A stretch of DNA of 64,000 nt from Amphibalanus amphitrite (lineage: Eukaryota; Arthropoda; Thecostraca; Balanomorpha; Balanidae), in the NCBI RefSeq assembly GCF_019059575.1, contig NW_024881859.1, forward strand, positions 496,001 to 560,000. Reading direction: 5' to 3'. The notes under the pieces were generated by a model that was not told the origin of the DNA, ran no database searches, and saw only the letters and a program-made list of their open reading frames with translations. Made by a program: the position numbers and the translations under genes. The first letter of the stretch is position 1, and every line of letters starts with the position of its first letter. Of the stretch, positions 5,799-58,309 are shown one piece after another.

Positions 5799-6115
5799 AG
5801 TGGTAGTGGTAGGTGTAGTGGTAGTAGTATTGGTAGGAGTAGCGGTAGGGGTAGTGGTAGTATTAGGGGTAAGGGTAGTGGTAGGGGTAGTGTTAGGGGT
5901 AGTAGTAGGGGTAGTGGTAGGGGTAGTGGTAGGGGTAGTAGTAGGGTAGTGGTAGTAGTAGGGGTAGGGGTAGTGGTAGGGGTAGTGTTGGGAGTAGTGG
6001 TAGGGGTAGTGGTAGGAGTAGTGGTAGGGGGTAGTGGTAGTGGTAGGGGTAGTGGTAGGGGTAGTGGAAGGGGTAGTGGTAGGAGTAGTGGTATGGGTAG
6101 AATTAGTAGAAGTGT
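5799..6115. repeat. G-rich minisatellite 4
   Basis: About 315 bp of the same repeat in macrosatellite unit 4, followed by the same GTGTGGCACAGGCCGATCC-type boundary as the other units. Confidence 0.93.
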
Positions 6116-9667: not shown

Positions 9668-9831
9668 GGAGTACCCGTGCGACCACTACACGGCAGTCAT
9701 CAACGTCACGCTGCTGAACACGGGCTGTCCTCGGGCCGAGATCCACCAGACGGCTCTGCAGCTTCTGCAACTGCTGGACAAACGGTTCTTCGGGCGGGAC
9801 GGACGGCACCTGGCTACAGAGAACGAGACAG
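9668..9831 (+). CDS. fry: furry homologue, internal exon A
   Basis: Furry is a very large HEAT/armadillo-type scaffold protein that works with NDR/LATS (Tricornered) kinases in cell and dendrite morphogenesis. The exon follows the acceptor ...TTCCTCAG and ends at the donor ACAG|GTCAGT. Its first base completes a codon. Then come 54 residues ([20 protein letters not shown], then [20 protein letters not shown] and an RDG-rich end) that closely match a conserved segment of the central furry region as I recall it. It ends one base into a codon, which fits exon B exactly (G + AT = Asp). The preceding exon is not identified. The following intron is 24.7 kb and contains the antisense GPCR gene. Confidence 0.92.
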
Positions 9832-34309: not shown

Positions 34310-34513
34310 TCTTCCTTCCGACCCCGTACGGTATCCTCTGTTGCCCCCCCCCCTCCCCGCCTCGTACCGTGCTCTCTGTGTGACCCGTCTCCCCGACCCG
34401 TACCGTGTCCTCTGCTGACCCCCCCTCCCCGCCCCGTGCGGCCGTGCCGTGTCTTCTGTGGCCGTGCCTCCTGTGTGACCCGCTGACCCGCCTCCCGCCC
34501 GGTTCGCCCGCAG
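34310..34513. repeat. degenerate tandem repeat leading into exon B acceptor
   Basis: Phrases like CCCGTACCGTGTCCTCTGCT recur near 34320, 34365, 34400 and 34445 with CTGTGTGACCCG between them. They provide a long pyrimidine-rich tract before the acceptor CGCCCGCAG. Confidence 0.6.
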
Positions 34514-34645
34514 ATGCTGAGAAGGAACGCCGCGAGCAGGGAACGCTGGACGCTCAGCTGGCCGCCTCCTACTGTCGGTCGCAGATGTTCCTCTCCAAGC
34601 AGCTGGCGCAGCTGCATCCGCACCTCACCATGCCCATGTTCTCAG
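34514..34645 (+). CDS. fry: furry homologue, internal exon B
   Basis: Acceptor CGCCCGCAG, donor TCAG|GTACGT. The first two bases complete the Asp codon begun by exon A. Then 43 residues follow: a variable charged start ([16 protein letters not shown]), then the conserved block [20 protein letters not shown] and FS. The LSxQLAxLHPxLTMPMFSE signature is typical of furry/FRYL. It ends one base into a codon (G), completed by exon C as Glu, giving MFSE. Directly downstream a copy of its last 31 bases is found. Confidence 0.93.
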
Positions 34646-34657
34646 GTACGTACCGCC

Positions 34658-34693
34658 ATCCGCACCCACCATGTCCATTGTCCATATTCTCAG
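34658..34693 (+). repeat. duplicated tail of exon B in the intron
   Basis: CATCCGCACCCACCATGTCC, then ATTGTCCATATTCTCAG, copies the exon B end at 34615-34645 (CATCCGCACCTCACCATGCC, CATGTTCTCAG). Junction to junction is 48 bases. At the copied junction GT has become AT, so it is not a usable donor. The reading frame stays open across it. Confidence 0.8.
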
Positions 34694-34699
34694 ATATGT

Positions 34700-36214
34700 C
34701 CGGCATACGATGTTTGCGAGGTACGAACCGTACGAACCGCCACGGGCGGCGGATTCGGTTGTTCGTGATCTTGTGGCGTGTCTCTTTTGCATGAGCTTGT
34801 TTAGGGAAATGTTTATCTGATATTCTAATGCCGCAGTTGTGCATATTAGTGACGCATGAAATCACACAGCTAGCTCAGTTGTTTTTGCACTAACCCCGCA
34901 GATATTGAAATAATATAATTATTGGCACAGTACCCATGCAGCTACTGAAGTTCTCTTACCCACGCAGCTACCGGCTACAGAAGTTCTTTCTCTCCCTTGC
35001 GTGGCTTTTTGATTACAGTAAAAGCAAAAACATATGTTCTTTTCACTACCGACGCTACGCTGCGCACAGAGTGCCACTCCTGAAAATTACTGCTTCCGAG
35101 AGCAGCACACTTGCAAAACATGTTGTTGATCAGGCTTTCTGACAGTTCTGCTGCTCGATATCTTGTATGCAAATTCGATATCTTAAATGTACTTATATTT
35201 TCATTGTATAAGCTTATACAGTATACACCCACCAGTTTTCTTTATAGGGCGTGAAAATCGTGATATGTGAATGGCTAAGTGCATTTGCGTTAGTTAGGAA
35301 CACCTCGCTCTAAACAGGTCTCTGCATCCTTTTCCGGGGATCGGTATTCAGTATCGTGTGGACTGTCCCTTTTATTTCTTTGAAAAGCGAAGTGTTGATT
35401 TTTCACGGCTTCGAACGCCACTGATGATATTTCATTCTCATCATTATTGCAATATTTGCTTTCCGGCGTTTTCACTCCTGGCAAGGTTTATAGCATTTAT
35501 TCAGTGATGACAGCAATCTCAGTTGACGTTTGAATCGTGAAATTTTCGTTGCATACGTCACGTATTTGCTCCCAAGACCGGCTATTCACTCGCGAGTTGC
35601 GTGGTTTTTAGGTCCGCCAAACCGAGGCTCATCAGGCGGGACAAAATAGACCAGCGACATAATGGCTAGGCTGTAAATTCACTGGTTAATGCCAGTAATG
35701 GGTAGTTCATGTCCAGGCTAGCCGATGAATCAGGGTGTGCCATCATGAAACCACATATAGGCTGTTTTAGCTGCGGTGCGGCTGCACATTTCCGATTGGC
35801 TTTGCAATGCTCACGGATCCACTGGCATTATGCAGGAACAACATTCCTCGTTTCAATCACTGGATGAAAAACACAATCACGTTAACCCGAGCATCCAATT
35901 GGAAAGCACGCATACACATATGACATGACATGTCGGCTTCAAGGCACATTGAACGCCAGAAACGAACACCTATGCACATTTAAAACGTGCTGTACCTATT
36001 TCAGTTTTTGTTACGTGCTGTCCAGCCTTGCATTGTATAGCAGGATTATCCTCAGAGATACCAGCCTAAGGTCGATGACAGATGCCACCGTTTTTACTCC
36101 AGTGTGCTATCATCCCTGTTGACGGGTTGCGTGCTGAAGCCGACGTGTCACGCACCTGCTGCTGCAGCATATTATGAATGAATGCTAGTACATCTCCAGT
36201 TGGTATATTTTTGA
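34700..36214. other. intron sequence, nothing recognised
   Basis: No exon or element end was identified up to the TTAA at 36215. Confidence 0.5.
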
Positions 36215-36900
36215 TTAACCCGGCAGGCGGTGGGCCTCCCGGCCACCTTCCGCGCGGTGGGGGGGGGGGCATTTTTTGCCCCCCCCCCCCCGTATCTCCG
36301 AAACTACTAGACGGATCCGGAAAATTCAAACGGCGTTCGCTAGCCCTGTCAAATTTGTCGAGAGAGACCAAATTTCATTGACCTCGGGTCACCGATGACG
36401 TCACAGGTCAGGTCAAAGATAAAATGTTTCACCATTCACGGCGCTTCTTGGGAAAGCGCTATAACACCGAGTAAAACGCATTTTGTCGAAAATCAGCGAT
36501 AGGGCATCAGTTGTCTAGTACATATGTTGCTATTAGAGGTCACTGGTCATACCAGGTCAGGTCACAGGTCAGGTCACTAAAGGTCACCAAGGGTCACCAC
36601 ATGAACCCAACTTTACTAAGGTTGTGCGATGCATGTTTTATGGCCAGTTTTTCATTTCCAACTCAATGGTGTTGGTTATAAGACCATCAGGTACGGTTTA
36701 GGTCACTTTCTGGTGGAGGTGAGGTCAAGGTCATGTAAAAAAGGTCAAATTTCAAAGTTGATATTTTTGCATAAAATGGGTATTGATCCGATGCAGCTTG
36801 TCACGGGGAGTCTAATGGTGGTCTTTGTTTTGCGCTACGAGGTCTAGAATTGCTAAAAATTGAGTTTGAAAATTTGACGTCATCAATTTTGAAGTTTTTT
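36215..36900. mobile_element. partial TTAA element related to the piggyBac-like family
   Basis: TTAACCCGGCAGGCGGTGGG at 36215, followed by a poly-G/poly-C hairpin (36259-36292), the motif TATCTCCGAAACTACTAGAC and repeated CAGGTCAGGTCA. It has the same architecture as the element at 24509. I did not find a matching right end, so the right limit is approximate and it may be truncated. Confidence 0.6.
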
Positions 36901-36929
36901 TTCGCTATAACCTGGCCAAAAAAAGCAAT

Positions 36930-38064
36930 AACGAAGCTGTTACATACTAGTATTCATGCCACAATTCATTTCGATTTACCGTCCTCCATTGGGCTTTCCA
37001 GTACAATAGCTGGATCAATATGAACTACAAGTAAAGAAACTGCCTTCAGGACCGGTCCTTATCATGTTACATTGCTCTATTAGCATATTTGTCTTCAAGG
37101 TTCCTTATATTTCATATTAAAGGTCTTCAATGGTGGCTCTATTTGCGACATATATTTTCTTTGTCATTGCGATTTTTGCATTTTCAAGTAATTTCCAAGT
37201 AGGTAAGTCAAGTAATTGCAGCTCATGTGTGAGTGTAGGATGTTATAATGCACCAATAAAGTTATGCAAGTCCAATTATCATAGCTGATCAAGCTGCGCA
37301 GTCTTTATAATGGTCTGTGTCATCAAATGTTGGACCTCTTTGACTGCAACTATCCCGTTACAAGCCCCTCAGGCGAGTGGAACTAGTGTATCCATAATAG
37401 CTGGTATTGACAATTCCCTATTTGGCGTCGATTTTGACGCCGTTCCCATTAGGCTTTTGCACAGCCCATAGCACTGTCTGTGAAAGAACTATTGTCGGGA
37501 CTTATGGCCAATTTCTGAGAAGGCAATGCCGTAGGTAGGAGTAAAGCAGCAATGGTGAATGCATTTTTCGTGTTGTATTTGTTGGGAGCCTTTCTTCTCT
37601 ACTCGAATTTCTTGGTGATGACAATGACGGGTCCGTGCTTTGAAAGTAATTGTTGATACTTAATTACTGATGCCGTTTGGAACATAACTATGTGTTCTGT
37701 GCTTCTGCGGAAATCACATTTAACTCTATTACAGTTTCATATCCACTGCTTGTGAACCTTATCGGTGTTCTGACGCCACTCCCTGCTCTTTTTTTTTCAC
37801 GTCATTTATTTTTGCTGACGCACTAGATATATTTACCGGTAGGTGCAAATGTTCACTGCTCAGCTAAAGGCGCCGCCTATCAAATCTATCAAATATATTT
37901 AAGGTTCAGGCTGCTAATGCTAAATACCCGTTTCACGATAATTCAGTTTGTTTTAATAAAAAACGCAATTTAATGAGCATTGGTTTAAACCATTGAACAC
38001 AAACCTTTGGCTTCTGTGCCCATTTGTAAGGTGATTTAGTGTAGCACTCCCCGCCATATACACC
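36930..38064. other. intron sequence, nothing recognised
   Basis: AT-rich, with no exon or element end identified. Confidence 0.5.
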
Positions 38065-38068
38065 AGTT

Positions 38069-39635
38069 GGGGCGTTCCACGACAAATCGACAAGTGCCCT
38101 GCACCCTCATATTTTATTTTTTGCTTAAAATTGGTCTAATGGGTTGTGATGGGCGGGGAAGCCAGCTGTGGCAAGGATTTTTTTCTTCCAACAACGGTTT
38201 CCGAGATATAGCCTCGGGCAATTCTTGGAGTTTGCGCTGCAGCCCTATGTTTGGCGGCCTATAACTTAGAAACTATTGGCTTTTTACGATAAAACTTTAT
38301 ATGGTTCAACTCCCAATCAACCAACAAACATTTTGGCTATCTCGGATTTTCAATTTTTGAAAATTTTGATCACGTGACCTTTTGTCCTATTTTTCGAAGA
38401 GTGACCTTGATATTTTCCCCACTGAAAGTTACAATTTTGTCTGATGACGATTAAAGCCTTATCAATTTTCATTCATATGCGATAATAAAAAAAAGTGGTT
38501 TTCGCCCTGCGTTGACCTCAGGTCAGGTCATTTTTATGACCTGTCCATTATTACGAGCGGGAGCGACAGCGAGATCTCGAGAATAAAGCAAGATAGCGAC
38601 AAGCGGTAAACGGTAAAGGGTACACACGGATAAGGTCTATAATTTTTACTGAGGTCATTTTCAGGTCAGGTCAAAGATGACGTCACAGGAGCTAAAAGAA
38701 AGTCAAAATAGCGGCACTATACATATATATGAAGTTTTTCTCGAATAACTTTCAAGGTATCGCAGCTAAGAACAAACTAATAGCACCATCGTGATCCTCT
38801 CGTCGATCCGCATCGAAACATATGTATGTTGACCTTTCGACCTTTCGAGGTCAACATACATACGTTTCGATGCGGATCGACGAGAGGATCACGATGGTGC
38901 TATTAGTTTGTTCCTAGCTGGGATACCTTGAAAGTTATTCGAGAAAAAACTTCATATATATGTAATAATATGTATAGTGCCGCTATTTTGACTTCCTTTT
39001 AGCTCCTGTGACGTCATCTTTGACCTGACCTGAAAATGACCTCAGTAAAAATTATAGACCTTATCCGTGTGTACCCTTTACAGTTTACCGCTTGTCGCTA
39101 TCTTGCTTTATTCTCGAGATCTCGCTGTCGCTCCCGCTCGTAATAATGGACAGGTCATAAAAATGACCTGACCTGAGGTCAATGCAGGGCGATAACCACG
39201 GCTTTTATTATCGCATATGAATGACAATCGATAAGGCTTTAATCGTCATCAGACAAAATTGCAACTTTCAGTGGGGAAAATATCAAGGTCACTCTTCGAA
39301 AAATAGGACAAAAGGTCATGTGATCAAAATTTTCAAAAATTGAAAATTCGAGATAGCCAAAATGTTTGTTGGTTGATTGTGAGTTGAACCATATAAAGTT
39401 TTTATCGTAAAAAAAACAATAGTTTCTGGGTTATAGGCCTCCAAACATAGGGCTGCAGCGCGAACTCCAGGAATTGCCCGAGGCTATATCTCGGAAACCG
39501 TTGTTTGAAGAAAAAAATCCTTGCCACGGCTGGCTTCCCCGCCCATCACAACCCCTTACACCAGTTTTCAACGAAGAATAAAATATGAGGGTGCAAATTT
39601 AATTTTTTATTTGTCGATTTGTCGTGGAACGCCCC
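38069..39635. mobile_element. 1.57-kb near-perfect palindrome (foldback element), AGTT direct repeats
   Basis: The termini are GGGGCGTTCCACGACAAATC and its inverted complement. The whole left half (38069 to about 38845) is repeated inverted in the right half with few differences. The centre is at GTTGACCTTTCGACCTTTCG / AGGTCAAC. AGTT flanks both ends (38065-38068, 39636-39639). The arms contain AGGTCA motifs and the GACGAGAGGATCACGATG segment also present near 25205. There is no open reading frame of note. A transcript would fold into a long double-stranded RNA. Confidence 0.88.
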
Positions 39636-39639
39636 AGTT

Positions 39640-42600
39640 TGCTTTGTTGTGTGTCGCGCAGTATATGTGCTAGATGTGGACAGGGCTCAGCTCAGCTGCC
39701 AGCTGGTGTTCGATGGTGACGTTTGTGGCGCCCCCTGGAGACGTGTGACATTTGTGGCGTCCCGCCGAGATGTGCGACATTACTGACGCCCCGGGGATCA
39801 CACCTGTTGACTCGGGAATAGCCCGGACGGCCGGGTGTCTAGGAGAGGCAGAAAGTTCGCAGCATCACTGCATGCCTATGTGAAGATAGTGCTCGCGATG
39901 TGTGCACAGGGGACGGCCTAGATTTAATCTGGCAATAGTGACATACTTAGGCGGCTATCCGGAGATAATATTCAAAATTATATAGCTGCTCACTCATTAT
40001 TTTGGATTATGTCGAAAAGCGTAGTTCAACTAACATTCATTTTAGTTTGGTAATGGTATACCTACCATAAATTCAGAGAATCTTGTTGTTTTGACTTACA
40101 GGATTGTTTTTTTCCCTCAGAAACTTTTGTTGCCTAAACATAAACTTCAACCTGAATTCTGAAATAAGAAGTTCAAGTGAGTTTTGTGGGCTGATCCCGA
40201 AGATGTGCTGGAAGGAATTCCAACATATCTGATACCCTTGTTATATTCCGTCAGCCTCAGGAGGAGTTTCCGGGCCTAGTTTTCGGAATGCCACTTATTC
40301 TTTTATACAACTTTGCATACCTTCATGTGCTTGTGCATTCCTTTAAAAGAACCCTGGCTGCCAACGGATGCATGTGCATTGTTGTTCAAGATTCAGAGTT
40401 ACCGGTGCTTTCCCTTACGAATAATGTCGTCTATTTTGGTTGAATCTCCTTTAGAGCGCAGTACCGGCGCCATCATGCTCCTTTATCTGCGCCTCTCGCG
40501 TCCCGGGGGAGACACTAAGCTGTACATACGGTATACGGCCCGGCCGCAGTGTCCCGGGCCGGGAGGGCCTAGCCGAGCGTCATTACCCGCGTCATCGGCC
40601 GGTCTCGGCCTCTTCGTGCTCCTCCTGCGCTCGGGCGTGGCTCCTCCTGTATTCCGGCCCTGTTTGGGCTCGGCTAGGCTCCGTGACGCTCCAGCACGGC
40701 TCCGCTGAGACTGGCTCAGCTCAGCCGTGCTCTGGCTCTGCACTGGAATGGTCCAAATCCATCCCAGGCTCGTCTCTACTTAGTACAGTCATTTCTCAGT
40801 GGCTAGGTTCCGTGTTTACTCTGGCTCAGCTCCGGCTCCAGCTCAGTCCCGACCCCAGGTCAGCTCCGATTCCAACTCAGCTCAACTCTGATTCCAGGTC
40901 AGTTCACACTCCGACTCCAGCTCATGCTCCGACTCCAGATCAGCTCCGATTCCGACTCCAGCTGCAATTCAGCTCCGACCCCAGCCCAGCTCACCCGTCA
41001 GCCAGCCAGTCCCTCAGACCCCGTTCTGCCCGGCCGCCGGACTGGACCGCCCTGTACCCGGGCGGCACGCCATCGCGGTGATGGAGTGACCATGTCGGCC
41101 TCAGAACTCTGCCCGCGTCACAGCCTGATGCAGCCACCCATCACACAAACGCCGTCCGTGGCACGGCATGGTACGGTACGGCACGGCCCGTGTTGCGCAG
41201 TTCGGTACGGTGCGGTACGGCCCGTGACGGCACTCCTAGCAGGACACGGCCTGGGACAGAGGCAGGCTGTCGTCATTGGTTCAGATTTTGTTGGGGACCG
41301 TTTGAATTCGGTGTGATTGGGTGTTGAATTACGACAGGCTGTCGGCTGCGCTTTGCTGATGTGGTAATATTGAGATTGGACTCGTGGGTACGCTGGAAGC
41401 GGGTGTCAGTCTAGGCAACAATGGAAATTCTGACGGAACGGTTTTCGGAGTATGTGTCTGCAACGGGGACGATCTACAGCAACTTCAGATGAATGGATAT
41501 TACGCTATCAGCATTCTCGCGCTCCTGCTTCGCCGTGTGGCTGAAGCCGATTGATACGTTTTACGACCACGTTCATTGAGCATGTGAGTTGGATTTGTGT
41601 ACCTCACGAGCTGCACGCGCCTACGATCTTACCAACGTTCAGCAATGGCTTATAAATGCAGCGCGCTCGTTAATCGCGGTCCGCCGTTCAGCTCTGCCTG
41701 GTCGCCTTTCGCCGCGCGCCTCACCATAGAGTCCTGTATGTGTCACACCCAGTCCTCTGCCGGTAACAGCTGACTATGCCCTAGCAGCGGCGGGCTTCTG
41801 CGTCTGACAGAATGGTCCCAGCGGCACTCTACATAGGCGATTTGCCTGGCAGGAGCGGCCCGATGGCTGGGAAGGCTGCGTTCAATAAATTGGCGGAGCC
41901 TGCCCTAGTTGGTGTCACTTCAAGCGTTCAGTTCAGGAGGCGAAGAGGGCTGATAGTGTCTGAGGGTGGCTGAAAGGTTGAGGGCGCGCCAGCTGAACTG
42001 TGAAGAGAATGGAATTCGGTAATACATCCGTATCTGATGGCTTTGAACCCGAAGAAGTGGCAGATCGGTTCGGAGTTTGCAAATGTTCCCATTGATTGTC
42101 ACTGCAAACTTTATTGTTTTCTCTAAAGAATGATACGCCAGTGTCGTAAAAGTGTCATAGTCTCATGGCGTCGGTCAGTCTGGCCAACTTATTGAAAAGA
42201 AATTTGAATGTATCGTGGTTCGTTTATCAAACTCTTGCCTGTCGAAAAAAAAACGTGCCCTGACAAGAAGTTTAGGAGGACAAGTGCAATTATTTTATCG
42301 AATCCTGCTTCATGAATCTCATGCATTTTATGATATTTGGTTTACGTTGTTCCTGATCCAGCACTCCTCGAGAGCTGTTCCGCTGTTTTCCAGCTATTTT
42401 TAGGAGATACAGACATCCATAGCCGCACCCATCATGCCCGTTGGGTCAGCTGCGACTAGTCTATCGCCGAGGGCCGTTTTTCGTGTCGCCGGCCCATCCC
42501 GGTCATTAGGTGACAGTGGTAAGTGTCGAACACCTCGCTGGCGACCCCCTTAGCTGCTAATCCCCCGAAACGAGCACCTGCCGTCGGCCGACGGGCGGCG

Positions 42601-44310: not shown

Positions 44311-44317
44311 CTCCGCG

Positions 44318-44618
44318 AAAGTCACCTGCAGCTTGACGTGACACGTTATCTGACCTTTGACCTCTCCCTTCGGCAGAAGTCACCTACCATTTGACATGAC
44401 GTGTTGGCTGACCTCTGACCTCTGACGTCTCCGGCATAGGTGACCTGTCGCTCGACATGACGTGTTGGCTGACCTCTGACCTTCGGTCTCTCTCTCCGGC
44501 AGAGGTCACCTACCGTTTGACGTGGCGCGTTACCTGACCTCTGACCCTTCTCTCCATCAGAGGTGACCTACCGTTTGATGTGCCGCGTTAACTGACCTCT
44601 GACCCTTCTCTCCATCAG
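44318..44618 (+). repeat. tandem array of decoy 3' splice sites before exon C
   Basis: The exon C boundary (YAG|AGGTGACCTACCG) is repeated upstream. Copies begin at about 44318, then 44377, 44440, 44503 and 44561, and the real exon begins at 44619 (spacings 63, 63, 58 and 58). Four copies (44377, 44440, 44503, 44561) end in a YAG preceded by a pyrimidine tract. The first has lost the AG. The copied exon part (GTGACCTACCGTTTGA) diverges after about 15 bases. Use of any decoy would shift the frame (extensions 58, 116, 179 and 242). Confidence 0.9.
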
Positions 44619-44752
44619 AGGTGACCTACCGGCTGCAGACGGCCCGCCCGATGATCCGCCAGCGCCTACTGCAGTACCTGCTACCCTGGCTCTACAACAT
44701 GGAGCTGGTCGACCCCAAGATTCAGCCCATGAGTCCGCTGGCCAAGTTTCAG
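44619..44752 (+). CDS. fry: furry homologue, internal exon C
   Basis: Acceptor TCTCCATCAG, donor TTTCAG|GTGAGA. The first two bases complete Glu. Then 44 residues include RQRLLQYLLPWLYNMELVDP, the most recognisable furry block, followed by KIQPMSPLAKFQ. It ends in phase 0. The upstream intron carries the array of duplicated acceptors. A Penelope-like element begins 52 bp downstream of the donor without touching the splice signal. Confidence 0.95.
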
Positions 44753-44891
44753 GTGAGAACCTATTCTGTTCGAGGAGATGCGACGCTAAAACACCCGTAG
44801 ATACGCGTATAGGAAGGCCTTAAATTAATTATTGTTCATTTGTTTTAAATTAAGACTAAAGCTAATGTTTAAAAATTGAGTTTTTTTTTTC

Positions 44892-44926
44892 GCCCGACGT
44901 TTCGCGTTTATTGCTTATTCATGGGC
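44892..44926 (-). other. hammerhead-like motif in the left PLE arm
   Basis: Inverted copy of the motif at 48231-48265, in the left arm of the element. Confidence 0.4.
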
Positions 44927-45089
44927 TAATGCTAAAACATAATTTCGTCGACATACATATCAAAAATTCAAATAACATCATTGACAGCACGCTTCACTAT
45001 AAACATTGTCTTTCGCTAAAAGATATCGTATCCGTTCGATCGATCGATTGCGTTCCTTCGTATACATACGTCCATGCATCCGTTCATAT

Positions 45090-46084
45090 CTATCGCATGT
45101 CTTTGATCTGGGATGCTATAATATCATGTAGTTTGAAGAAGCCTGGCGATACGTTTATCACTTTTTCTGTGGAAATGTAAGCGGCCTCTATCAGCCACCG
45201 ACGTGTTTTCGTTAAACCTGTGTGTATGGCCTGTGCTTCGTTCCAGTTTGGTAGATGTCCTTCTTGATCTGCGTGAATGACTAATGCCTTGGATGTTCTG
45301 TGATTACGTAAGTCATTTTTGTGCTCTTGAATACGTTTTCTTAGACCTCTCCCCGTTTCTCCGAAATACGATTTATCACATTTGCTGCAAGGGATTTTGT
45401 ACACAATACTGTCTGAATCTACTTCCTTTGGCTTTTTTCTAGCAAGTATCTGCCCGACCTTCTTTCCCGAAGCTGATACTACTCTCAGATCAGGCGCCAG
45501 CATCTTTGCTATTTGATCAGTTGTCTCACTATTTGGTGCAATAAAATATGCCCTTTTCTTGTCTTGTGCATCCCTCTCTGTCCTGGGCCTGTGTCTGATC
45601 TGTTTTGCTTTTTTCTGTAACTCGATCAGTAGAGACTCGGGGAATTTCAACGCCATGAATGCTTTCTTAATGTAATCTAGCTCGTCCTGTAGGAACTCAG
45701 GAGAGCAGATACGGTAGGCTCGCAAAAAGAAACCGATGACTATGCCTGTCTTACTTCGCAAGCTGTGTGCCGAAAAATAGTGCACGAAATCATCTTTGTT
45801 AGTTGGTTTCCTATATACAGAGAACTTAAACCCTTCTTCAAATCTCCTGATGACTACATCAAGGAACGGAAGTTTTCCGTCCTTCTCCTGCTCTAACGTA
45901 AACTGGATGGCTGGTTCGACATCATTGAGTTGTTTTAACAGGTCTTCCACACTACGTTCATTGGGGATGAAAGCTACTATATCGTCTACATATCTGTAAA
46001 CTGTTGTATCTTCCCCGAAGATAGAAAGGAAGTGCTCCTTTTCAAGCAGCTCCATGTATAAATTGGCCAAAACTGCACTCAATG
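45090..46084 (-). pseudogene. inverted 3' half of the PLE polymerase gene
   Basis: The minus-strand frame is identical in protein to the last 330 or so residues of the plus-strand ORF (from SAVLANLYMELL to QIKDMR). It lacks motifs A and most of B of the reverse transcriptase, so it cannot make a working polymerase. Its reading frame is uninterrupted, which supports a very young age. The upstream codons in that frame (46085-46136) are unrelated flanking sequence. Confidence 0.92.
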
Positions 46085-46096
46085 TGTTAACATAGG

Positions 46097-48067
46097 ATGG
46101 ATCTAGATAGGAAGCTAGACAAGTTATGCGATTCAAGTGATTGGAACACAGCAGGAAACATGTCTCTGGTCACGAACTTATCCGACCGTGTACTTACTAA
46201 GACAGAAATAGCAGTGCTATCGCTCGGTTTAAAGTTCGATGTGGGTGGCCCAAGCAAGCATTTACAGGAATTTGTGATAAGAAATCATAGATTTGGAGAT
46301 TCGGACATAGAGAAGGGTTTCAAGCAAGGTGTCTCTGCGTGTTTAACAGCAATGGCCAAGGACCAGACAGTTACTGTTCCTAAGCGGTTTGTGCAGGCTC
46401 TGGACTCACTGAAAAAGGACCGCAGCATAATCATCACCACCGCTGACAAAGGGGGCGGAGTGGTTGTCATGAACTCAAAAGATTACGAAGCCAAAATGAA
46501 GACACTGCTACAAGACGGGAACACTTACCAGAACGAGGCGCCAGGCACATCTAAGAAAAAGTCCACTTCTTTTTCCAAGGAGGCAAGGAAAATACTGCGG
46601 AACTCAGAACCGGGAAAAAAGCTGCAATACCTGCTAGAAGAAAAGCCCAAGACACCGTCCATGAGGGGACAGCCCAAGATACATAAGACGGACGTGCCGA
46701 TGCGGCCCATCACATCAGGTGTCGACAGTGCACCGCACAGACTTGCCAAACATCTAGCCAAACCACTCTCACAATGTCTAGGAAAAATGAGTCCAACACA
46801 CTTAAAGAATTCTGCAGACCTCTTGGAAAGAATTCAGACAGTAGACCACACAAAACACATGGTAAGCTTCGACGTAAAATCACTTTTTACAAATGTTCCA
46901 ATTGATGGAGCCATGAGGGCCCTTCATGAGGTACTAGATCTAGTGGACGATGTCCAACTTCCGGTCCCAAAAGATGATTATATTAGATTAGTTGAACTCT
47001 GCATAAGATTTGGAAGTTTTGAGTTTCAAGGGGAGGAATTCACACAAATCAACGGACTAGCAATGGGGTCTCCATTGAGTGCAGTTTTGGCCAATTTATA
47101 CATGGAGCTGCTTGAAAAGGAGCACTTCCTTTCTATCTTCGGGGAAGATACAACAGTTTACAGATATGTAGACGATATAGTAGCTTTCATCCCCAATGAA
47201 CGTAGTGTGGAAGACCTGTTAAAACAACTCAATGATGTCGAACCAGCCATCCAGTTTACGTTAGAGCAGGAGAAGGACGGAAAACTTCCGTTCCTTGATG
47301 TAGTCATCAGGAGATTTGAAGAAGGGTTTAAGTTCTCTGTATATAGGAAACCAACTAACAAAGATGATTTCGTGCACTATTTTTCGGCACACAGCTTGCG
47401 AAGTAAGACAGGCATAGTCATCGGTTTCTTTTTGCGAGCCTACCGTATCTGCTCTCCTGAGTTCCTACAGGACGAGCTAGATTACATTAAGAAAGCATTC
47501 ATGGCGTTGAAATTCCCCGAGTCTCTACTGATCGAGTTACAGAAAAAAGCAAAACAGATCAGACACAGGCCCAGGACAGAGAGGGATGCACAAGACAAGA
47601 AAAGGGCATATTTTATTGCACCAAATAGTGAGACAACTGATCAAATAGCAAAGATGCTGGCGCCTGATCTGAGAGTAGTATCAGCTTCGGGAAAGAAGGT
47701 CGGGCAGATACTTGCTAGAAAAAAGCCAAAGGAAGTAGATTCAGACAGTATTGTGTACAAAATCCCTTGCAGCAAATGTGATAAATCGTATTTCGGAGAA
47801 ACGGGGAGAGGTCTAAGAAAACGTATTCAAGAGCACAAAAATGACTTACGTAATCACAGAACATCCAAGGCATTAGTCATTCACGCAGATCAAGAAGGAC
47901 ATCTACCAAACTGGAACGAAGCACAGGCCATACACACAGGTTTAACGAAAACACGTCGGTGGCTGATAGAGGCCGCTTACATTTCCACAGAAAAAGTGAT
48001 AAACGTATCGCCAGGCTTCTTCAAACTACATGATATTATAGCATCCCAGATCAAAGACATGCGATAG
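46097..48067 (+). CDS. Penelope-like reverse transcriptase with GIY-YIG endonuclease, 656 aa
   Basis: Copies element RNA into DNA at a nicked target. Order of parts: N-terminal PLE motif NLSDRVLTKTEIAVLSLGLK (27-46); GGGVVVMNSKDY (119-130); PKIHKTDVPMRPITSG (193-208); motif A SFDVKSLFTNVP (257-268, catalytic D259); motif B INGLAMGSPLSAVLANLYME (318-337); motif C YVDD (357-360); LPFLDVVIRR (397-406); YRKPTNKDDFVHYFS (416-430). The C-terminal endonuclease has VYKIPCSKC (553-561), YFGETGRGL (565-573), R576, H580, HADQEGH (596-602) and E625. The C-x2-C plus His pattern fits the Zn-binding GIY-YIG of Penelope-type elements. An in-frame stop just upstream and the junction at 46084 limit the start. 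Family members often have a longer N terminus, so this copy is probably 5'-truncated, though otherwise intact. Confidence 0.95.
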   Translation: MDLDRKLDKLCDSSDWNTAGNMSLVTNLSDRVLTKTEIAVLSLGLKFDVGGPSKHLQEFVIRNHRFGDSDIEKGFKQGVSACLTAMAKDQTVTVPKRFVQALDSLKKDRSIIITTADKGGGVVVMNSKDYEAKMKTLLQDGNTYQNEAPGTSKKKSTSFSKEARKILRNSEPGKKLQYLLEEKPKTPSMRGQPKIHKTDVPMRPITSGVDSAPHRLAKHLAKPLSQCLGKMSPTHLKNSADLLERIQTVDHTKHMVSFDVKSLFTNVPIDGAMRALHEVLDLVDDVQLPVPKDDYIRLVELCIRFGSFEFQGEEFTQINGLAMGSPLSAVLANLYMELLEKEHFLSIFGEDTTVYRYVDDIVAFIPNERSVEDLLKQLNDVEPAIQFTLEQEKDGKLPFLDVVIRRFEEGFKFSVYRKPTNKDDFVHYFSAHSLRSKTGIVIGFFLRAYRICSPEFLQDELDYIKKAFMALKFPESLLIELQKKAKQIRHRPRTERDAQDKKRAYFIAPNSETTDQIAKMLAPDLRVVSASGKKVGQILARKKPKEVDSDSIVYKIPCSKCDKSYFGETGRGLRKRIQEHKNDLRNHRTSKALVIHADQEGHLPNWNEAQAIHTGLTKTRRWLIEAAYISTEKVINVSPGFFKLHDIIASQIKDMR

Positions 48068-48230
48068 ATATGAACGGATGCATGGACGTATGTATACGAA
48101 GGAACGCAATCGATCGATCGAACGGATACGATATCTTTTAGCGAAAGACAATGTTTATAGTGAAGCGTGCTGTCAATGATGTTATTTGAATTTTTGATAT
48201 GTATGTCGACGAAATTATGTTTTAGCATTA

Positions 48231-48265
48231 GCCCATGAATAAGCAATAAACGCGAAACGTCGGGC
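48231..48265 (+). other. hammerhead-like motif in the right PLE arm
   Basis: GCCC / GGGC stem ends enclose CATGAATAAGC...GCGAAACGTC. GAAAC-GTC with the palindrome ACGT as helix III matches the minimal type-I hammerheads reported in Penelope-like elements. However, the CTGANGA core is changed (extra A, and T in place of the essential G8), so self-cleavage is unlikely in this copy. Confidence 0.45.
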
Positions 48266-48391
48266 GAAAAAAACCTCAATTTTTAAACATTAGCTTTAGT
48301 CTTAATTTAAAACAAATGAACAATAATTAATTTAAGGCCTTCCTATACGCTCAGCAACACTTGTCAATTTATATACTTAACCCGTAGATAC

Positions 48392-50779
48392 ATTGCATGG
48401 TGGTCTGTTTCGGTTACTGGTTCGGTGCATTGAAGTAGGCGGATGCAGTGAATTGAATGTGAATTAGAGAATATATTCATTTGTTTTTGTGCGAGAATAG
48501 TACCTCTTTTTACTTTTCACATCATTCCTCAGAACAGAAGCTGAACAGCATCTTACCCATGATTAGTGCAGGGCAAGGATAAATATGCAAGATCATCTAA
48601 TTCCAACCGCGTTCTATGTATCGTCTACGGCTTACGCAAGTTCGTTTATCAAAATGTGATCTGTACAGTGAGAGTACAATAACTATACACGACATTGCCA
48701 GCGCCGCCTCTCTCCGGTCACTCTCGTCTGATAAGGTGTCCGCATCATCCAGAGCTCACACTCTACTTCCATCCGCGTGAGCCACCAATCTCTGGGCCCA
48801 CGCTCAGGTTAGCCACATCCGCTTACCCTTTTGACCGTGCGTCACCACTATTTGGCCGCCCTCTCGCTGTTTTTGTAGACACAGTGTGGCGTCAGTAGCT
48901 CTTCGAAGCTCGACAGGTTATTGGTTGTGATTTATGTGACCGGGGGGGGGGGGGGCATAGAGCCCACCAGAGCCGCTCCCTGGTTGGTTGAGGCTCCGGC
49001 GCTGTCAGGATTGGAAGTCGATAGTGTGGCGCAGTTTTGAGTGGCAAGAAAATATGGTAAGGAAGATATGTATTTTTGGTTAACACATGCTATGTCCCCT
49101 GTGAAGTTCCAAGCTGTGAGTTGTTGTGATGGCATAATCCGAAATAAGCTCTTCGGCTGCGTAGTAGAGCCCGGGGTATGGCGCAGTTGGTTCGTTTCGT
49201 GGACATGACCGGTGAGCACAGAGCCTCCTTTCGGGCCCATTTGCCGGTAATGGTGGGGACGACGTGCGCTGTCCCGGTCACTTTGAGCGCTAACCATGAT
49301 TGGAGAGGGCCGCCGGCCGTCGGCGGGGCCGTCGGGACCTCCGCCGCGGTCAGACGAGTACCACCGGCAGTCAGACGAGTATCGCACCCCCGGCCGGCCG
49401 GACCCCCCGGCGGTCCCAGTGGATCTTTCGAGCTGAACACGACGCTGTAGCGCTTTAACGCTTTATGATCTCGGTTGAAATGGCGTTTTCAGGGCTGCAG
49501 CTTTGTTAGTGCTTTCAGTATGATGTTATCGTTGTTGATGAGTTAATTAAGTGTCCTTTTCGTAGAGGCAGCCTCATTCAACAACCTCATTCCGCGATTT
49601 TATGTTTGCTTTTGAATCGATCTTGCTTATCAATCCCGGTGGAATATAAACCCATGATTGAATGACTATTTACCGTTCTGATCACCAGAACAATGCATTT
49701 TACTGCAGCTAGTTGATCGATAACTCAAACAGCTGTGTCCTGGAATCGTATGAAAGACAATCTAGCCGTAGCGGAGTTAGGCAATGCATATGAAGACCGT
49801 GGCATCAGGCACGGACGGGACGTAAAGGTCAAACAGAGGCTCACGTGACAGCGCGATCAGTTAGTTTCTGGGTGATGGTGCCCCCAGACAGCGTGCCACT
49901 TGTGCTGTAAAAAGGAATAAACGCGATTTGCATGATATATTAGGGAATGAATGACAGCGTATGTGCACAAGTGTACTGCTTGATTCTTATCATCGGCAGC
50001 GTCGATCGCCATTTACGTAAACAACTCTTGATGCTTTTAATTACGGCGCTTAATTAGTTGGAGTTAAATGTCGCGCGTCATTTCGAGTGGATTGACCCGT
50101 TGCAGTCTTAACTTCTATGATCCAATTAGGAGTTGCCGGAAGTGATGAGCGCCTCCAACCGCCGGCTGACATTTGGGGATCAGAGCGTGCCGACTCCCCC
50201 TGTCTGTGTCGGAAAGGGCCCGGGGACTCCGCCACCACCTCAGGCTGGCCTACGCACCTCCATGACCCGTGACTTGTGACATGTGACTGGCCGGGTGTAG
50301 TGCGCTAACCCGGACCTCACCCCGCGACTTGCGACCGGCCGAGTGGACCAGGGAACTCAACTTTGTCCACTGACCCCGGCGGCCGGTGGTCGGGACAACT
50401 TTGTTCGTTTGTTGCGGTCGCCGTCGCCCTCCTGTAATGCACAACCTGTGGCGACGCCTTTGATCGCGTCTTTGATCTTGCCTCCCCGATCCCCGTGTCG
50501 CATGACATGGGCGGCAGCCAGACTCGCTGTGCAAACCGCCCGCCCGCTATTCTGCAGTTTCGCGGTAATGAATCAGGAAGTGTGGTGTTGACGTAAATGC
50601 TCGACGCCTCTCTGTGGTGCGAGATGTGTCCATTATTTTTTTTTTCACTGAGCCTTAGTAGTTTGTACTGGCAGCTAGTCCTGTTATTTCTGGTTTCTGT
50701 TTCTCGTACACTCCCATTATGTCTTTTTAGTGCCCTATTCTGCGCTGGTTTTCCTCACATATCGGCCTCTGTGTTTCAG
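48392..50779. other. furry intron between exons C and D, right part; nothing recognised
   Basis: Includes a poly-G tract at 48942-48955 and GC-rich DNA near 49300-49420 and 50100-50560. No additional exon or terminal repeat was identified. Confidence 0.5.
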
Positions 50780-50890
50780 TACTTTTCTCAGATTGAGGCG
50801 TCGAGCGCGGCCCAGCAGCGCAGGGAGGGCTGGGGCTCGGCGGAGGCCACCGAAATGGTTATCAACAACCTGCTCTACATCACGGCAAAG
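50780..50890 (+). CDS. fry: furry homologue, internal exon D
   Basis: Acceptor TGTGTTTCAG, donor GCAAAG|GTCAGT. Phase 0 at both ends, 37 residues: YFSQIEASSAAQQRREGWGS then AEATEMVINNLLYITAK. The GWGS-EATEMVxNNLxYITAK block is strongly conserved in furry/FRYL proteins. The N-terminal half (QIEASSAAQQRR) is the variable insert that precedes it. No duplicated junctions were seen around this exon. Confidence 0.95.
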
Positions 50891-53150
50891 GTCAGTCCCG
50901 CGCCGCCGACCGCCGCCACTCGCAGCCGACCGCCGCCGCCGCCCTGTCGTGTCACGAATTAGGGTGTCGTTAAATTGGCATGGTGTCTGTCTGTTGTGCA
51001 GAGAAGGGAAATTGCTTTTTTTGTGACGACTTTAGTAGTCATTTTCAGGAAGATGCTGGTATTTTGATTTGTGCTGTTTTAGCTGCAGATACCCAGTGAA
51101 CTGTGTGGTGTGATTCTGGTAAGAGCTGCTTTTTAATGGCATATAACCAGTGGGCTGTGTGACGGGATGATAATGTATGCTCGTAAGTGTAGTGCATTGC
51201 AGTTATTTATGGCCCGTTTGGCTTAGCACTTATTTGGGGATGACCTTGCGGGCTGCGGCCTTCGACGATTGAATGACGTCTGCACGTAAAGAACATGACG
51301 AAATATGCGACTACATTTGCCCCATGGCTCCCATGTGACTGTCATTAATGGCTACTGGGGCATCTGAACAGACGCTGTGTGGTCGGATCTCCGGTGAATT
51401 CCTTGTTATGCGCGTTACGGCTCACTACAGCGATGGTGATATCGCCCACGGACCATCTCATAATCCACACACCATTCTGGCTATATTTGCGACTTTGTCT
51501 CGACTCGGCATTCCGTCTTTGCACACTGCCTCTTGTTCTCCGCCTTCCACATCCGTAAGACGGTTCGTACGATCCTAACCTCTCGTCTCCTTCGCACCCT
51601 CCCCTCTCCCCCCTCCGTCACGCCTCCCTCCCCTCCCGTCCGCTCCCCGTCGCCCCGCCGGACTGCGAGCTCGCCAGTGCCGGGATTGGCGCGGCCCGAA
51701 CGTCCGCTGCTGTCGGCTCCGGCGATCAATGAACAGATGATGACGGATCACGAACGTCGACCGCCCTTCCAAGGGGCCGCGAACGGTTTCCGTCGACTGG
51801 CCTTCGCAGCTGGGCCGCGGAGACCACCTGCACCCGCCGCCGGCACACCGCGCGGCAAAGAATTATCGCCGCCAAATCGCCACTAAGTTGTGATAAATCG
51901 CTGCGAAGACAGCGCCTCGCCTATGACCTATAGCGAGTTAGCGGGCGACATTTTGCCGACCACGTGTTAGCGGAAAGGTCTGGCCAGTCGGATTCGTTCC
52001 GGGAAATTCGGGTTACATGTGAAGCACGATCACATGGGAAATGGATGTCCACCGAGTTCAAAGCTGAAAAAGATTCCGCACTTATAGCGTCATGTGGTGT
52101 TTAACGTACTTTGCTTCGTTGACCTTATGCTTCGAGCTTTATGATCTTCTTTGAAGCCATCAGATAAATTTTGAACCATCTTTAGCACCCAGTGCATGCT
52201 CACTCGGGGGATGCGCATTGCGCAGCATGTTTGCTGACGTGTTACGCATAAACTTATTGAAACCGGCAGCCAGAAGACGCACATGTCTCCGTGTGTGCGC
52301 ACGGGCCAATGGCTCGCACAAACACTACGCGAGCACGCTCCCGTCTGTCCGGCCTGTGGGACGCACGCGACCGGTGGCAGATCTGTCATCGCGTGTCATC
52401 GGTGCGGTGACAGCTGTCATCGCGTGCGACCGTCACCTACGACTCGGTCACGCCACGGGAAACACAGCGACGGCGGCTCTCCACTCCGCCATTGTTGCCA
52501 GTTTCTAAGCTTTACGCGCACAGATTGTCTGGCTGGCTTTATCTTATTCCGCGTCTGTCTGCTAGCTGAAATGGCCTCATTTGCTAGACTGCCTAATGAC
52601 TCGTGGAAGGCGTTCCGTTCACAGCTTGGGGAATTCTAAATGTGCCCAGCTGTTGCCGCAGACGTTTTCGCCAAGGAGCTGGCTCACACTGGGGTTAGAG
52701 GGGGAGAGGGATGAGGGCGAGGGCAACCGGACCTGTCTCCAGTCTGTGTGATGTAAGCGCACAGAGCTCAGTAGGCTGATCGTTCCCCGAAACGGATGTC
52801 TCCAGCCCAGTAACAGGGGTTCTAGGATAGCTAAAAACGGGCCCTGCTCTGATGTGGGATTGTCGGTTTACCGGCTGGAGTGAGGCCAGAGCTAGGATGA
52901 AAATGCATTAGCTGTTGGAAACGGTTGTGAGTTAATCTGTCAATTTAGTGCGTTGTCGGGCGTGAGTTATTTCTAGATGCGACCTGGACTGACGTTGAAG
53001 GATATGTCCTTGTTTGTAGCCAGGAGCCCGCCACTAATATAGAGTTGACGGTCCGATACACCATCTTTGAAGATGACCCTTGGATGATCTGGCCCAAATT
53101 CATAATCGTTAAATGACTTTGCCCTCACCTGGAAACTCATCTGACCCTGA
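50891..53150. other. intron sequence, nothing recognised
   Basis: GC-rich patches at 51590-51870; no exon or element ends found. Confidence 0.5.
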
Positions 53151-53335
53151 CACTGAGCCTGACTTGACCTGACACTGACCTGACCTGACCTGACCTAACC
53201 ATAACCCAACTTGACCATGGCCCAATCTGACCCTGATAGCATGGGACATGACCTGGCCATTGCCCGACCTGACCCGACCTGGCCCGGACCCGACCCGATC
53301 TGACCTGTCCTGACCCGACCTGACCTGCGATGGCG
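53150..53335. repeat. (CTGAC)n-type repeat up to exon E acceptor
   Basis: Repeats of CTGACC, CTGACCTGAC and CCGACCCGAC fill the region before the acceptor. They supply its pyrimidine content and end within about ten bases of the exon. Confidence 0.85.
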
Positions 53336-53339
53336 GCAG

Positions 53340-53474
53340 ATTGGCGACGACCACCCGAAGGAGCTGGAGGACCTGTGGGCAGCACTCTGCTCCTGCTGGC
53401 CAAACAACCTCAAGATCATCCTGCGCAGTCTGTTCATCCTCTGTGGAATGGCGCCCAATGAACTGCTGCCCTAC
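53340..53474 (+). CDS. fry: furry homologue, internal exon E
   Basis: Acceptor GGCGGCAG, donor CCCTAC|GTAAGT. Phase 0 at both ends, 45 residues: IGDDHPKELEDLWAALCSCW, PNNLKIILRSLFILCGMAPN, ELLPY. The GDDHPKE.E.LW..LC.CWPNNLK and GMAPNELLPY blocks are diagnostic of furry. The exon's 3' end with its donor has been copied several times into the following intron. Confidence 0.95.
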
Positions 53475-53494
53475 GTAAGTACCGGGGTTAGTAG

Positions 53495-53690
53495 GATAAT
53501 GTCCAACGAACCCAGTAGGATGCCCACTGCCCAGTAGCCTTATTTGAGTACTGGGATGGGGATGGCGCCCAACGAACTGCTGCTCTACGTGACCGAGTAC
53601 TGGGACCGGTGGGGTCCAAATGAGTTGCTGCCCTATGTGAGTACTGGCATTAGTAGGATGGCGCCCAACGAACTTATGCCCTATGTGAGT
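53495..53690 (+). repeat. tandem copies of the exon E tail with decoy 5' splice sites
   Basis: Copies of ATGGCGCCCAACGAACTGCT-type sequence followed by a GTGAG-like junction end at 53588, 53636 and 53684 (48-bp steps), with a more degraded copy near 53500-53545. Two junctions (53636 and 53684) keep a strong donor, TAT|GTGAGTAC. All are in the frame of exon E and keep the peptide MAPNELxxY. An in-frame TAG at 53535-53537 would stop any product that used them. Confidence 0.9.
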
Positions 53691-53699
53691 ACAACTATT

Positions 53700-54488
53700 T
53701 TGTCGACGACCGTCAGTTTTCGGTACCACTTCCACGTGAGTTTGCTCAGCGTCTGTGTCTCCGTACTTGTGCGTTTGACTGGATAAATCGTCCTGTGTTT
53801 GCACTAAGTCTTTTACGTCAGAAGCGAGAGGGGTCATAAGGACAAGCTAAAATTCTCGTCATCCATTGGTGTTCATCTGACCGTGACATAACAGATAGCG
53901 TATGAGCACTCGTGCATTCAGCAGCACGTGTGCACATAAGACCTTGCTCAAATACAGATGGACATCACGCTTTCATGTAGTTCGTTTTTATTATATAACT
54001 AGGTGTCCAGCATTACGCGCAGCGTAATGAATCAATTTTCATTAAAATCGGCCCAGTAGCGGCCGAGTTATTGCCAGAATGAATATTGCGTCTCCTCTTG
54101 GCCGGCGGTGCTCTGTTCCGTTATTCATTGCCAAAGGTCAGTGACCTTCCGGCTCTGATTTCACCCAGTTTTGCAAGCGAAGAAACTGAGCCTAAGGCGC
54201 GTGCCGTCTGCTCGAAGCCGGCCGCGGCCCAAAATCCCACAAAGATGCGCCCGCCACGTGCAAACCGTCGAACCCACCCCCTCCAAAATTTAATACAACA
54301 AACAGATGCACGCGTCCGACTTAAGTCGAAAATATCACCCCCGTAGCCCGCACCGTTCCGGAGCAATAGCCCGTCAAGCGTGACTGACGCGTCACATACG
54401 GACATTTTGATTTTTATATATGTAACAATGCCTTTGTAGCCGCACAGTCGGTGCTTTTTTCGTCCGTTGGACACTTGCGGCCTTTGAC
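53700..54488. other. intron sequence with one recurrent module, minus strand
   Basis: At 54034-54073 the minus strand reads ATAACTCGGCCGCTACTGGG then CCGATTTTAATGAAAATT, the module seen in many elements in this window. No exon and no clear element limits. Confidence 0.5.
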
Positions 54489-55456
54489 CCGAGCCCCGGT
54501 CACACATACACGACGCACGGCCCGCGCACCAAAAATTCATTCATTTAGGCCAGTGCGTCATCCTGCGCTATGCATTCGTTACTCGTTCGTCGAGTGCGCT
54601 GGGCCAACGGTATCATGCGTCGTCATTCGTTGCGTGCGTCGACAATTTTTGTGCATGCTCAAAAATGTGCGTTGAGCTCGACGCACGAAGACGAACGCCA
54701 GACACACGTGGAACACACGCTGGGTATTCGTTGTGTGCTCGTCGGCTGATGCGTAGCGAATACCTAGCGCGGACATAGCGTGCCTCAAACGCATGTCTAA
54801 CGGATGCGCATAGACTATAAAGGCGTGGTAAACAAGAGCTGAACGAGTCTGCAGCGCGCACAGCGTTCGTCTGGCGTATGTCATACGGTCCCGCCCTACC
54901 TCCTCATTTCTCCTTCTACCCTCATGGGTAACTCTTCTGCGTCATTGCTGCATAGTGCACAGGCTCCTTTCAATTCCTCCTGCTCTTGATGCCAGAATTT
55001 AGTGTTTTTCTTCGTGCAGGTCGCCTTTCGTCCCTTTGCCTTGGGAGACATCTTGATATCCCTTCAAATTCCATGGAGGGCCGATGAGGATGTACCCTCC
55101 TTGGCGTCCTAGTCCTACTGATATGACAACAGGCAAGACGGACCACTGCGCCGCTGCAAAGTGAAGTTCGCTGACTGTGCGTTGAATGCGCGGTGTACGC
55201 GCGATCCCTGCGTCCCGTGCGCTAGCAACCCGCTGTGCATCCGTTGTGTGTGCGCGCTTTATGCGCTCTGTATTCGCTGTGTAGGTGCCCTGTATACGCC
55301 CGGCGCGCTGGCAAAGCGCTTGTAGCGCGTTGTGCATTCGTTGTAAAGTTGCTATTTCCTGCTGACTCTTGACAAAAGTTGGTCACACATCAACGCACGA
55401 CGACGCACTGGTCTTTTTGCAATGCGCCGGCCGTACGTCATGTATGTGTGACCGGG
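54489..55456. mobile_element. TIR element, about 970 bp, 8-bp target duplication
   Basis: CCTTTGAC directly flanks it (54481-54488, 55457-55464). The termini share CCGGTCACACATACACGACG / inverted CATGTATGTGTGACCGG, continuing to ACGGCC, about 35 bp with a short left extension. Eight-base duplications fit the hAT superfamily but the ends do not prove it. The interior is made of repeated GTGTGCG/GCGTGCGT phrases with no transposase frame. Confidence 0.8.
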
Positions 55457-55464
55457 CCTTTGAC

Positions 55465-55864
55465 GGCCGGACCCAAAGGGCTCGGCGCCGTCTCCGATGT
55501 TAAAGACACGACGAGAGAATGCAGTGTGGGACCGGACACCGGGGACCGTCTCCCCGGTGGGAGAGAGCGCGCGTGACTCCCACGGCATTGACTATTGCGC
55601 AGCGGTTTTTTAGTAGAAGGTGTTCGGTGAAGAGTACTGCGATGGAAATCGAACGTTTTGATCTGATGATAGCATGCGTGAGAGGCAGGCGCTGTTTTTC
55701 ATGGGACGGACGGGGCACCATGTGATATTAGATTGTTTGATGACAAATATTGTAGTACGTATTGGCGGATCTCTATTGTGACGAAGATGTTGCCCTGAAA
55801 GTCGGACAGCTCCCACTGATCGGCGATTAAACATGTGTTCACCATCTGCCCACTGCGCCTCAGA
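55465..55864. other. intron sequence, nothing recognised
   Basis: No exon or terminal repeat seen before the 29-bp array. Confidence 0.5.
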
Positions 55865-55981
55865 TAGCGGCAGTGAGGCCCCGTGTCCCTGTATAGCGGC
55901 AGCGACGCCCCGTGTCCCTGTATACCGGCAGTGACGACTGGTGTCCCTAAGTAGCGGTGATGCCGCCCCTGTTCCCCGCAG
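55865..55981 (+). repeat. 29-bp tandem array ending at the exon F acceptor
   Basis: Four units start at 55865, 55894, 55923 and 55952 (TAGCGGCAGTGAGGCCCCGT and relatives, each ending near CCCTGTA). The last runs exactly into the acceptor CCCCGCAG. The first bases of exon F (GGCCGGCGGGTGGCG) resemble the start of a unit (TACCGGCAGTGACG), as if the exon boundary were part of the array. Confidence 0.85.
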
Positions 55982-56147
55982 GGCCGGCGGGTGGCGGTGT
56001 ACATGGCCCGCGTCCGTCCCGACCAGCTGGTCGAGGAGATGATGACCGAACTGCAGACGGTCGAGTCGATGAACTACACCATCGAGCGGACAGAGACGCC
56101 GCCATTCTTCCGTATCACGTCGCTGAGGAAGACGTCCAGTCACTCAG
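55982..56147 (+). CDS. fry: furry homologue, internal exon F
   Basis: Acceptor TTCCCCGCAG, donor CTCAG|GTGCGT. It starts in phase 0 and encodes 55 residues: [63 protein letters not shown]...[17 protein letters not shown] is a conserved furry block. It ends one base into a codon, completed by exon G as Val. The upstream intron end is the 29-bp array. Confidence 0.95.
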
Positions 56148-58200: not shown

Positions 58201-58309
58201 TGACGGAGTGTGGCGGCAGCGGCCAGCAGGACCCGGCGCCGCCGCCAGCCGCCGAGAAGGGCACTCTGCACACCAAACGGCACAGCGGCGAGGAGATGCT
58301 CCGAGACAG
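58201..58309 (+). CDS. fry: furry homologue, internal exon G
   Basis: Acceptor TGACCTCCAG, donor GACAG|GTGGGT. Two bases complete Val, then 35 residues: TECGGSGQQDPAPPPAAEKG, TLHTKRHSGEEMLRD, ending two bases into a codon. GTLHTKRHS...EE is a known conserved island in an otherwise variable, probably disordered linker of furry. The Gly/Pro-rich first half is typical of this linker. The next exon is not found before 64000. Confidence 0.85.

Follow-up and report, generated by a model that had tools for sequence, protein, structure and literature searches.

Why should the edges of exons in one gene be copied again and again into the adjoining introns? The question is raised by a window of 64,000 nucleotides from Amphibalanus amphitrite (C362:496001–560000, on contig NW_024881859.1, in an assembly of 807.55 Mb and 2644 contigs), which carries part of a Furry gene. 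An earlier note on this window had proposed that sequence spanning the splice junctions of Furry was duplicated in tandem into the introns, and that the recurrence pointed to a process acting at exon edges, or to a tolerance or use of the resulting decoy sites. The recurrence within Furry is real, and it is replicated at exons of the gene that lie beyond the window. We consider that it most plausibly reflects recurrent local tandem duplication, tolerated as the extra copies sit in introns, with Furry as a hot spot; our rough probability for this reading is 0.6.

Within the window, the clearest case is the acceptor of exon C (Table 1), where the five copies previously counted correspond to 5.2 copies of a 58-base unit in the output of Tandem Repeats Finder (TRF). 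The unit contains a branch-like CTGAC, a pyrimidine tract, an AG, and the first bases of the exon; of the upstream copies, the three that clear a cut of 62% identity all retain the AG. The three or four copies reported after exon E are likewise present; the donor GT is retained at +114, +162, and +210 and lost at +69, and the score of these copies is reached in 0 of 1000 shuffles. Best-match identity is 88% at exon C and 79% at exon E. The single 48-base copy described after exon B does exist, with a gapped score of 20 that is likewise reached in 0/1000 shuffles, but the match is a gapped one that has lost the donor GT, and its ungapped score is only 14, a value also found at 137/3610 intron-interior points of the other-gene sample described below. 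At exon F, the 29-base array is genuine, whereas its supposed run exactly into the acceptor, exon bases included, is not borne out: the array stops 33.5 bases short of the junction, and a degenerate last unit reaching into the acceptor is borderline (17/1000 shuffles). The like event at the end of a nested G-protein-coupled receptor (GPCR) gene is borne out, with the same stop codon closing each of three 75-base units. Self-match scoring recovered no junction copies at exon D (score 5 at the acceptor, none at the donor), at candidate exon G, or at the candidate exon upstream of B.

Junctions were scored by the best ungapped self-match within 400 bases that took in 8 bases of exon and 8 of intron, with a score of at least 16 counted as a hit; this limit was set after the window scores were known, and before those of the Furry junctions outside the window. 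The exon C junction scores 74. By this measure, a junction-spanning copy is present at 2 of 14 Furry junctions inside the window and at 6 of 41 outside it, in a reading of C362 that left out 466301–496000 and 580001–602371. In the introns of the window the same score was reached at 90/1599 points, many of them inside the arrays under discussion. Because Furry was flagged for looking unusual, that selection affects every test except those outside the window. There, the exon at C362:575203 has its acceptor copied six times upstream with a 78-base unit, the last copy shortened, and TRF reports a 54-base donor array at C362:571354 and a 58-base one at C362:567052; at a further hit, 566032, no copy passes a stricter identity cut. 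All Furry hits fall from C362:461370 onward (8/36 junctions, vs. 0/19 before that point), a split that was made post hoc.

The positions of repeat arrays tell a similar story. TRF arrays with a period of at least 15 were re-placed at random, in such a way that no exon was covered over more than 60 bases. Over all of Furry, 6/19 arrays overlap a junction where 1.53 would be expected (p 0.0015), and 12/19 lie within 100 bases of one (p 0.0002). Outside the window, the corresponding counts are 5/12 (expected 1.39, p 0.0047) and 9/12 (p 0.0002); the window by itself gives a weak result, with one of seven arrays overlapping a junction (p 0.14) and three of seven within 100 bases (p 0.007). When placement was matched for guanine–cytosine (GC) content, the 6/19 overlaps compared with 2.25 expected (p 0.009), which rules out GC composition alone as the cause of the enrichment. 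This test excluded a stretch that carries a reverse-transcriptase insertion, as did a point-by-point comparison, in which the limiting score was reached at 11/66 junction points, 336/1686 intron points 8–200 bases away, 126/992 points at 200–400 bases, and 396/7008 points beyond 400 bases. Furry arrays do cluster near exons, but the junctions are no richer than the intron 8–200 bases off, and the effect in Furry is thus exon-proximal rather than junction-specific.

For comparison, we sampled genes of three other families, Cpn60_TCP1 (chaperonin), DHC_N2 (dynein), and Myosin_head. From 87 introns, removal of seven belonging to Furry left 80 (160 junctions), to which 138 one-sided junctions, retained only above splice-score limits, were added, giving 298 junctions, or 193 loci once haplotigs were merged; two adjacent exon pairs with no acceptable intron (on C935 and C802) were dropped. 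Nine of the 298 junctions score, representing 7/193 loci, with 7/96 at acceptors and 0/97 at donors. Treating junctions as independent, Furry exceeds these genes overall (8/55 vs. 7/193; Fisher p 0.006) and outside the window (6/41 vs. 7/193; p 0.013); by junction type, the counts are 3/27 vs. 0/97 at donors (p 0.009) and 5/28 vs. 7/96 at acceptors (p 0.10). Intron-interior points of the two-sided introns, the seven Furry introns included, reach the limit at 109/3610. Among the arrays of the other genes, 4/34 overlap a junction, all at acceptors (expected 2.02, p 0.14), and two of these four are haplotigs of one locus; 9/34 are no more than 30 bases from a junction, where 4.1 would be expected (p 0.011), and 12/34 no more than 100 bases (p 0.09).

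The families searched are often present on two contigs, as would be expected for uncollapsed haplotypes, and this permits a view of the duplications in motion. One chaperonin acceptor on C481 carries a 42-base duplication that is absent from haplotig C222; at another, three upstream copies pass on C1029 and two on C1931 under the same cut. Such differences in presence and copy number between haplotigs indicate that the duplications are live. The units at the latter acceptor (loci L066 and L065), three to four in number, resemble one another more closely in their exon-derived part than in the pyrimidine tract. The Furry stretches searched each gave a single match in the assembly, with no second haplotig.

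On the reading that we favor, ordinary local tandem duplications, perhaps of a slippage, microhomology, or unequal-exchange type, would recur in the genome, and some would expand into minisatellite-like arrays. A duplication inside an exon would disrupt the protein and be eliminated by selection. A duplication over an exon edge, by comparison, would deposit its extra copy in the intron while the frame-preserving site (the 3'-most acceptor or the 5'-most donor) remains, and could therefore persist; copies would thus be expected to pile up on the intron side with their splice cores largely intact. The copies do lie on the intron side. Events of the same kind at acceptors of the other genes (7/96) and, free of any involvement of splicing, at the GPCR stop codon are consistent with this account. 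The splicing machinery would presumably pass over the decoys. Among those checked, from seven Furry arrays, 17/24 would shift the frame and 7/24 would bring in a stop, so that productive splicing must use the outer site. Three observations weigh against recurrent duplication with simple tolerance. It predicts a junction rate no higher than that of the intron interior, and yet Furry is enriched even with GC-matched placement; donor events are found in Furry and at none of the 97 donor loci of other genes; and the richness of Furry is left unaccounted for, as its hits lie in a region of generally longer introns, yet the other-gene hits of known intron length are in introns of 195–526 bases.

A rival reading is a mutational process that favors duplication at exon edges, for example through transcription, splicing intermediates, or GC-rich borders, and that acts most strongly in Furry. 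The junction overlap in Furry, its persistence under GC matching, its replication outside the window, and the excess of other-gene arrays within 30 bases of junctions would all be expected from such a process. We nevertheless regard it as rather improbable. The overlap of other-gene arrays with junctions is not significantly above expectation (p 0.14) and comes in part from a single locus, and neither is their number within 100 bases (p 0.09); the junctions of Furry score no more often than their near surroundings; of the five arrays that overlap junctions outside the window, two (463650, 566158) take in just one exon base; and deep introns may consist of younger, transposon-derived sequence, of which only one reverse-transcriptase insertion was excluded. 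The process proposed in the earlier note has statistical support in Furry, and an edge-targeted process of general reach is possible, with little support outside that gene. That exon edges are tandem-duplication hot spots in this lineage, coupled to transcription or splicing and yielding arrays of near-equivalent sites of which one preserves the frame, seems to us improbable; if true, it would bear on the evolution of gene structure.

It is also conceivable that the decoys are kept by selection as regulators of splicing, whether as redundant signals or as unproductive sites that lead to nonsense-mediated decay. In sequence terms, the copies are indeed decoys, as had been claimed: in a first version covering Furry and the other genes, 35/39 keep their AG or GT (expected 25.3), and when copies were chosen without regard to the core dinucleotide and second haplotigs were removed, 30/33 keep it against 21.5 expected from flanking identity, with an excess in 12/13 arrays. 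(The latter count leaves out 566032, C254, C1021, and C802, which have no passing copy, and the second haplotigs C887 and C1931.) That all 24 decoys checked in Furry yield a frameshift or a stop, and that arrays of the branch-site-type pentamer CTGAC lie upstream of acceptors, would also suit a regulatory role. However, the columns beside the AG or GT are about equally conserved, the exon-side ones most of all, so that retention may simply reflect local alignment and young age, and the excess offers no separate sign of selection on the dinucleotide. Copy presence and number also differ between haplotigs of the other genes. Regulatory decoys are in our view doubtful. Useful alternative coding isoforms are unlikely as well, since by the called phases none of the 24 decoys gives an in-frame open product (one is left open if phases are disregarded; four copies with a lost core, three of them in Furry, were not counted). 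Of the two options originally offered, tolerance or use, it is tolerance that fits best.

An assembly artifact is very improbable. Arrays of tandem units are easily misassembled, the Furry stretches searched are found once and so have no second haplotig as a check, and the array at C362:574726–575248, with units 97% alike, is the most open to miscounting; but the copies in many arrays have diverged, as the best-match identities at exons C and E illustrate, and comparable arrays are present in both members of chaperonin haplotig pairs. Introners or other dispersed repeats were rejected on the evidence of the exon C array, the sole array searched, which matches just itself in the assembly (very common words skipped) and so lacks the similar sequence in introns of many genes by which introners are recognized.

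Minisatellites, or variable number tandem repeats (VNTRs), consist of head-to-tail units. The arrays described here share this organization, with units mostly of ~20–80 bases within the ~10–100 bases usual for the class, and a difference in copy number is seen between haplotigs C1029 and C1931 at one chaperonin acceptor. Unlike ordinary minisatellites, they are placed at exon edges and carry exon sequence and splice sites. Human introns have reportedly arisen from tandem arrays (work attributed to Zhuo et al., 2007), with repeats that delimit new, alternatively spliced introns at either end; the likeness lies in tandem direct repeats that take in splice boundaries.

The closest precedent among the sources consulted is the potato RdRp gene, in which a tandem duplication spanning an acceptor gave rise to an additional intron and exon, whose splicing was confirmed by RNA reads (PMC4974935). 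As in Furry, the duplication carries the 3' end of the intron (branch site, pyrimidine tract, and AG) together with the start of the exon; the Furry copies, by contrast, are found inside introns that already exist, and several form arrays. A survey of intron gain, citing Gao & Lynch (2009), describes small internal duplications with splice signals as a common source of introns and tabulates 188 events; those duplications create introns, while here no intron or exon has been added as far as can be discerned. Work on novel Drosophila introns describes short direct repeats that overlap splice sites (PMC2809761), a further likeness to Furry, although the repeats there are short and belong to novel introns, and those described here occupy exon edges of an existing gene and are often multi-unit. 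Among the matches listed for chosen terms in an open-access library, judged by title and the beginning of the abstract, none describes junction-spanning arrays that recur within a single gene. Models of intron gain through tandem duplication presuppose junction duplications that are live and vary between haplotypes, as some do here. Where several donors or acceptors are nearly identical and the frame is preserved by the outermost alone, the array amounts to a natural experiment on the choice of the spliceosome among equal sites.

The assignment to Furry draws on Pfam: MOR2-PAG1_mid matches the joined exons B–F at 27.8 bits, barely above its cut-off of 27, and eight MOR2-PAG1_N matches lie upstream of the window on the same contig and strand (C362:456390–460233). 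Taken exon by exon, PF14228 found no match in the barnacle's own genome, and the joined B–F peptide found no solved structure at E 0.001. Further Furry exons came from a coding scan for which exons defined by homology served as the training set. After exon F, exons at C362:554201, 566032, 566847, 570262, 571205, 575203, and 578890 fit in phase end to end; these models are predicted from coding score, splice sites, and phase. Exon E and the full length of exon D were placed by eye, and the candidate exon upstream of B is tentatively assigned to Furry.

Table 1. Features of the window, with positions counted from its first base.
Feature	Position	Strand	Basis
Candidate Furry exon upstream of B	9668..9831	+	Coding scan
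Three 75-base units, GPCR 3' coding end with stop codon	29625..29850	-	TRF; each unit ends in the same stop codon
36-base array, ending ~77 bases 5' of exon B acceptor, no exon bases	34347..34437	+	TRF
Furry exon B	34514..34645	+	Coding scan, phase, splice sites; part of joined B–F Pfam match
Gapped copy of exon B donor edge, GT lost	34657..34699	+	Gapped alignment vs. shuffles
~5 58-base units across exon C acceptor	44321..44631	+	TRF, junction self-match
Furry exon C	44619..44752	+	Coding scan, phase, splice sites; single match in assembly
Furry exon D	50780..50890	+	Placed by eye; coding scan preferred shorter acceptor at 50792
CTGAC pentamer array just 5' of exon E acceptor	53141..53327	+	TRF
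Furry exon E	53340..53474	+	Placed by eye; not returned by coding scans; part of joined B–F peptide
Copies of exon E donor edge	53495..53700	+	Copy alignment, shuffles
29-base array before exon F acceptor	55864..55948	+	TRF
Furry exon F	55982..56147	+	Coding scan, phase, splice sites
Candidate Furry exon G	58201..58309	+	Coding score and phase only

Pentamers of CTNAC type are enriched near acceptors more widely. CTGAC occurs 15–60 bases before 39/148 acceptors of the other genes, vs. 13/148 in a control stretch, and CTAAC behaves similarly (22/148 vs. 2/148). In the Furry sequence covered, all four sense CTGAC clusters lie within 200 bases 5' of an acceptor, two of them in the exon E array, 15 and 145 bases upstream of its acceptor; an antisense cluster (579769) does not. 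Three sense clusters were recovered in the other genes, and one of these precedes a called acceptor by 22 bases. A CTGAC array is also present at C362:461330–461354, just upstream of an acceptor, and the pentamer fits the apparent branch-site consensus.

Two further features of the window stand apart from the exon edges. The intron after exon C contains a perfect inverted repeat of 1201 bases (arms 44884–46084 and 47073–48273, with 988 bases between), which could only have come from a very recent insertion or from a fold-back in the assembly. The arms are two copies of a reverse-transcriptase element (Pfam RVT_1), which we take to be Penelope-like. Short-repeat blocks of AGTGGT/GGTAGG type with a strong GC skew occupy the start of the window, at 1539–2087, 3123–3527, 4540–4846, and 5799–6100.

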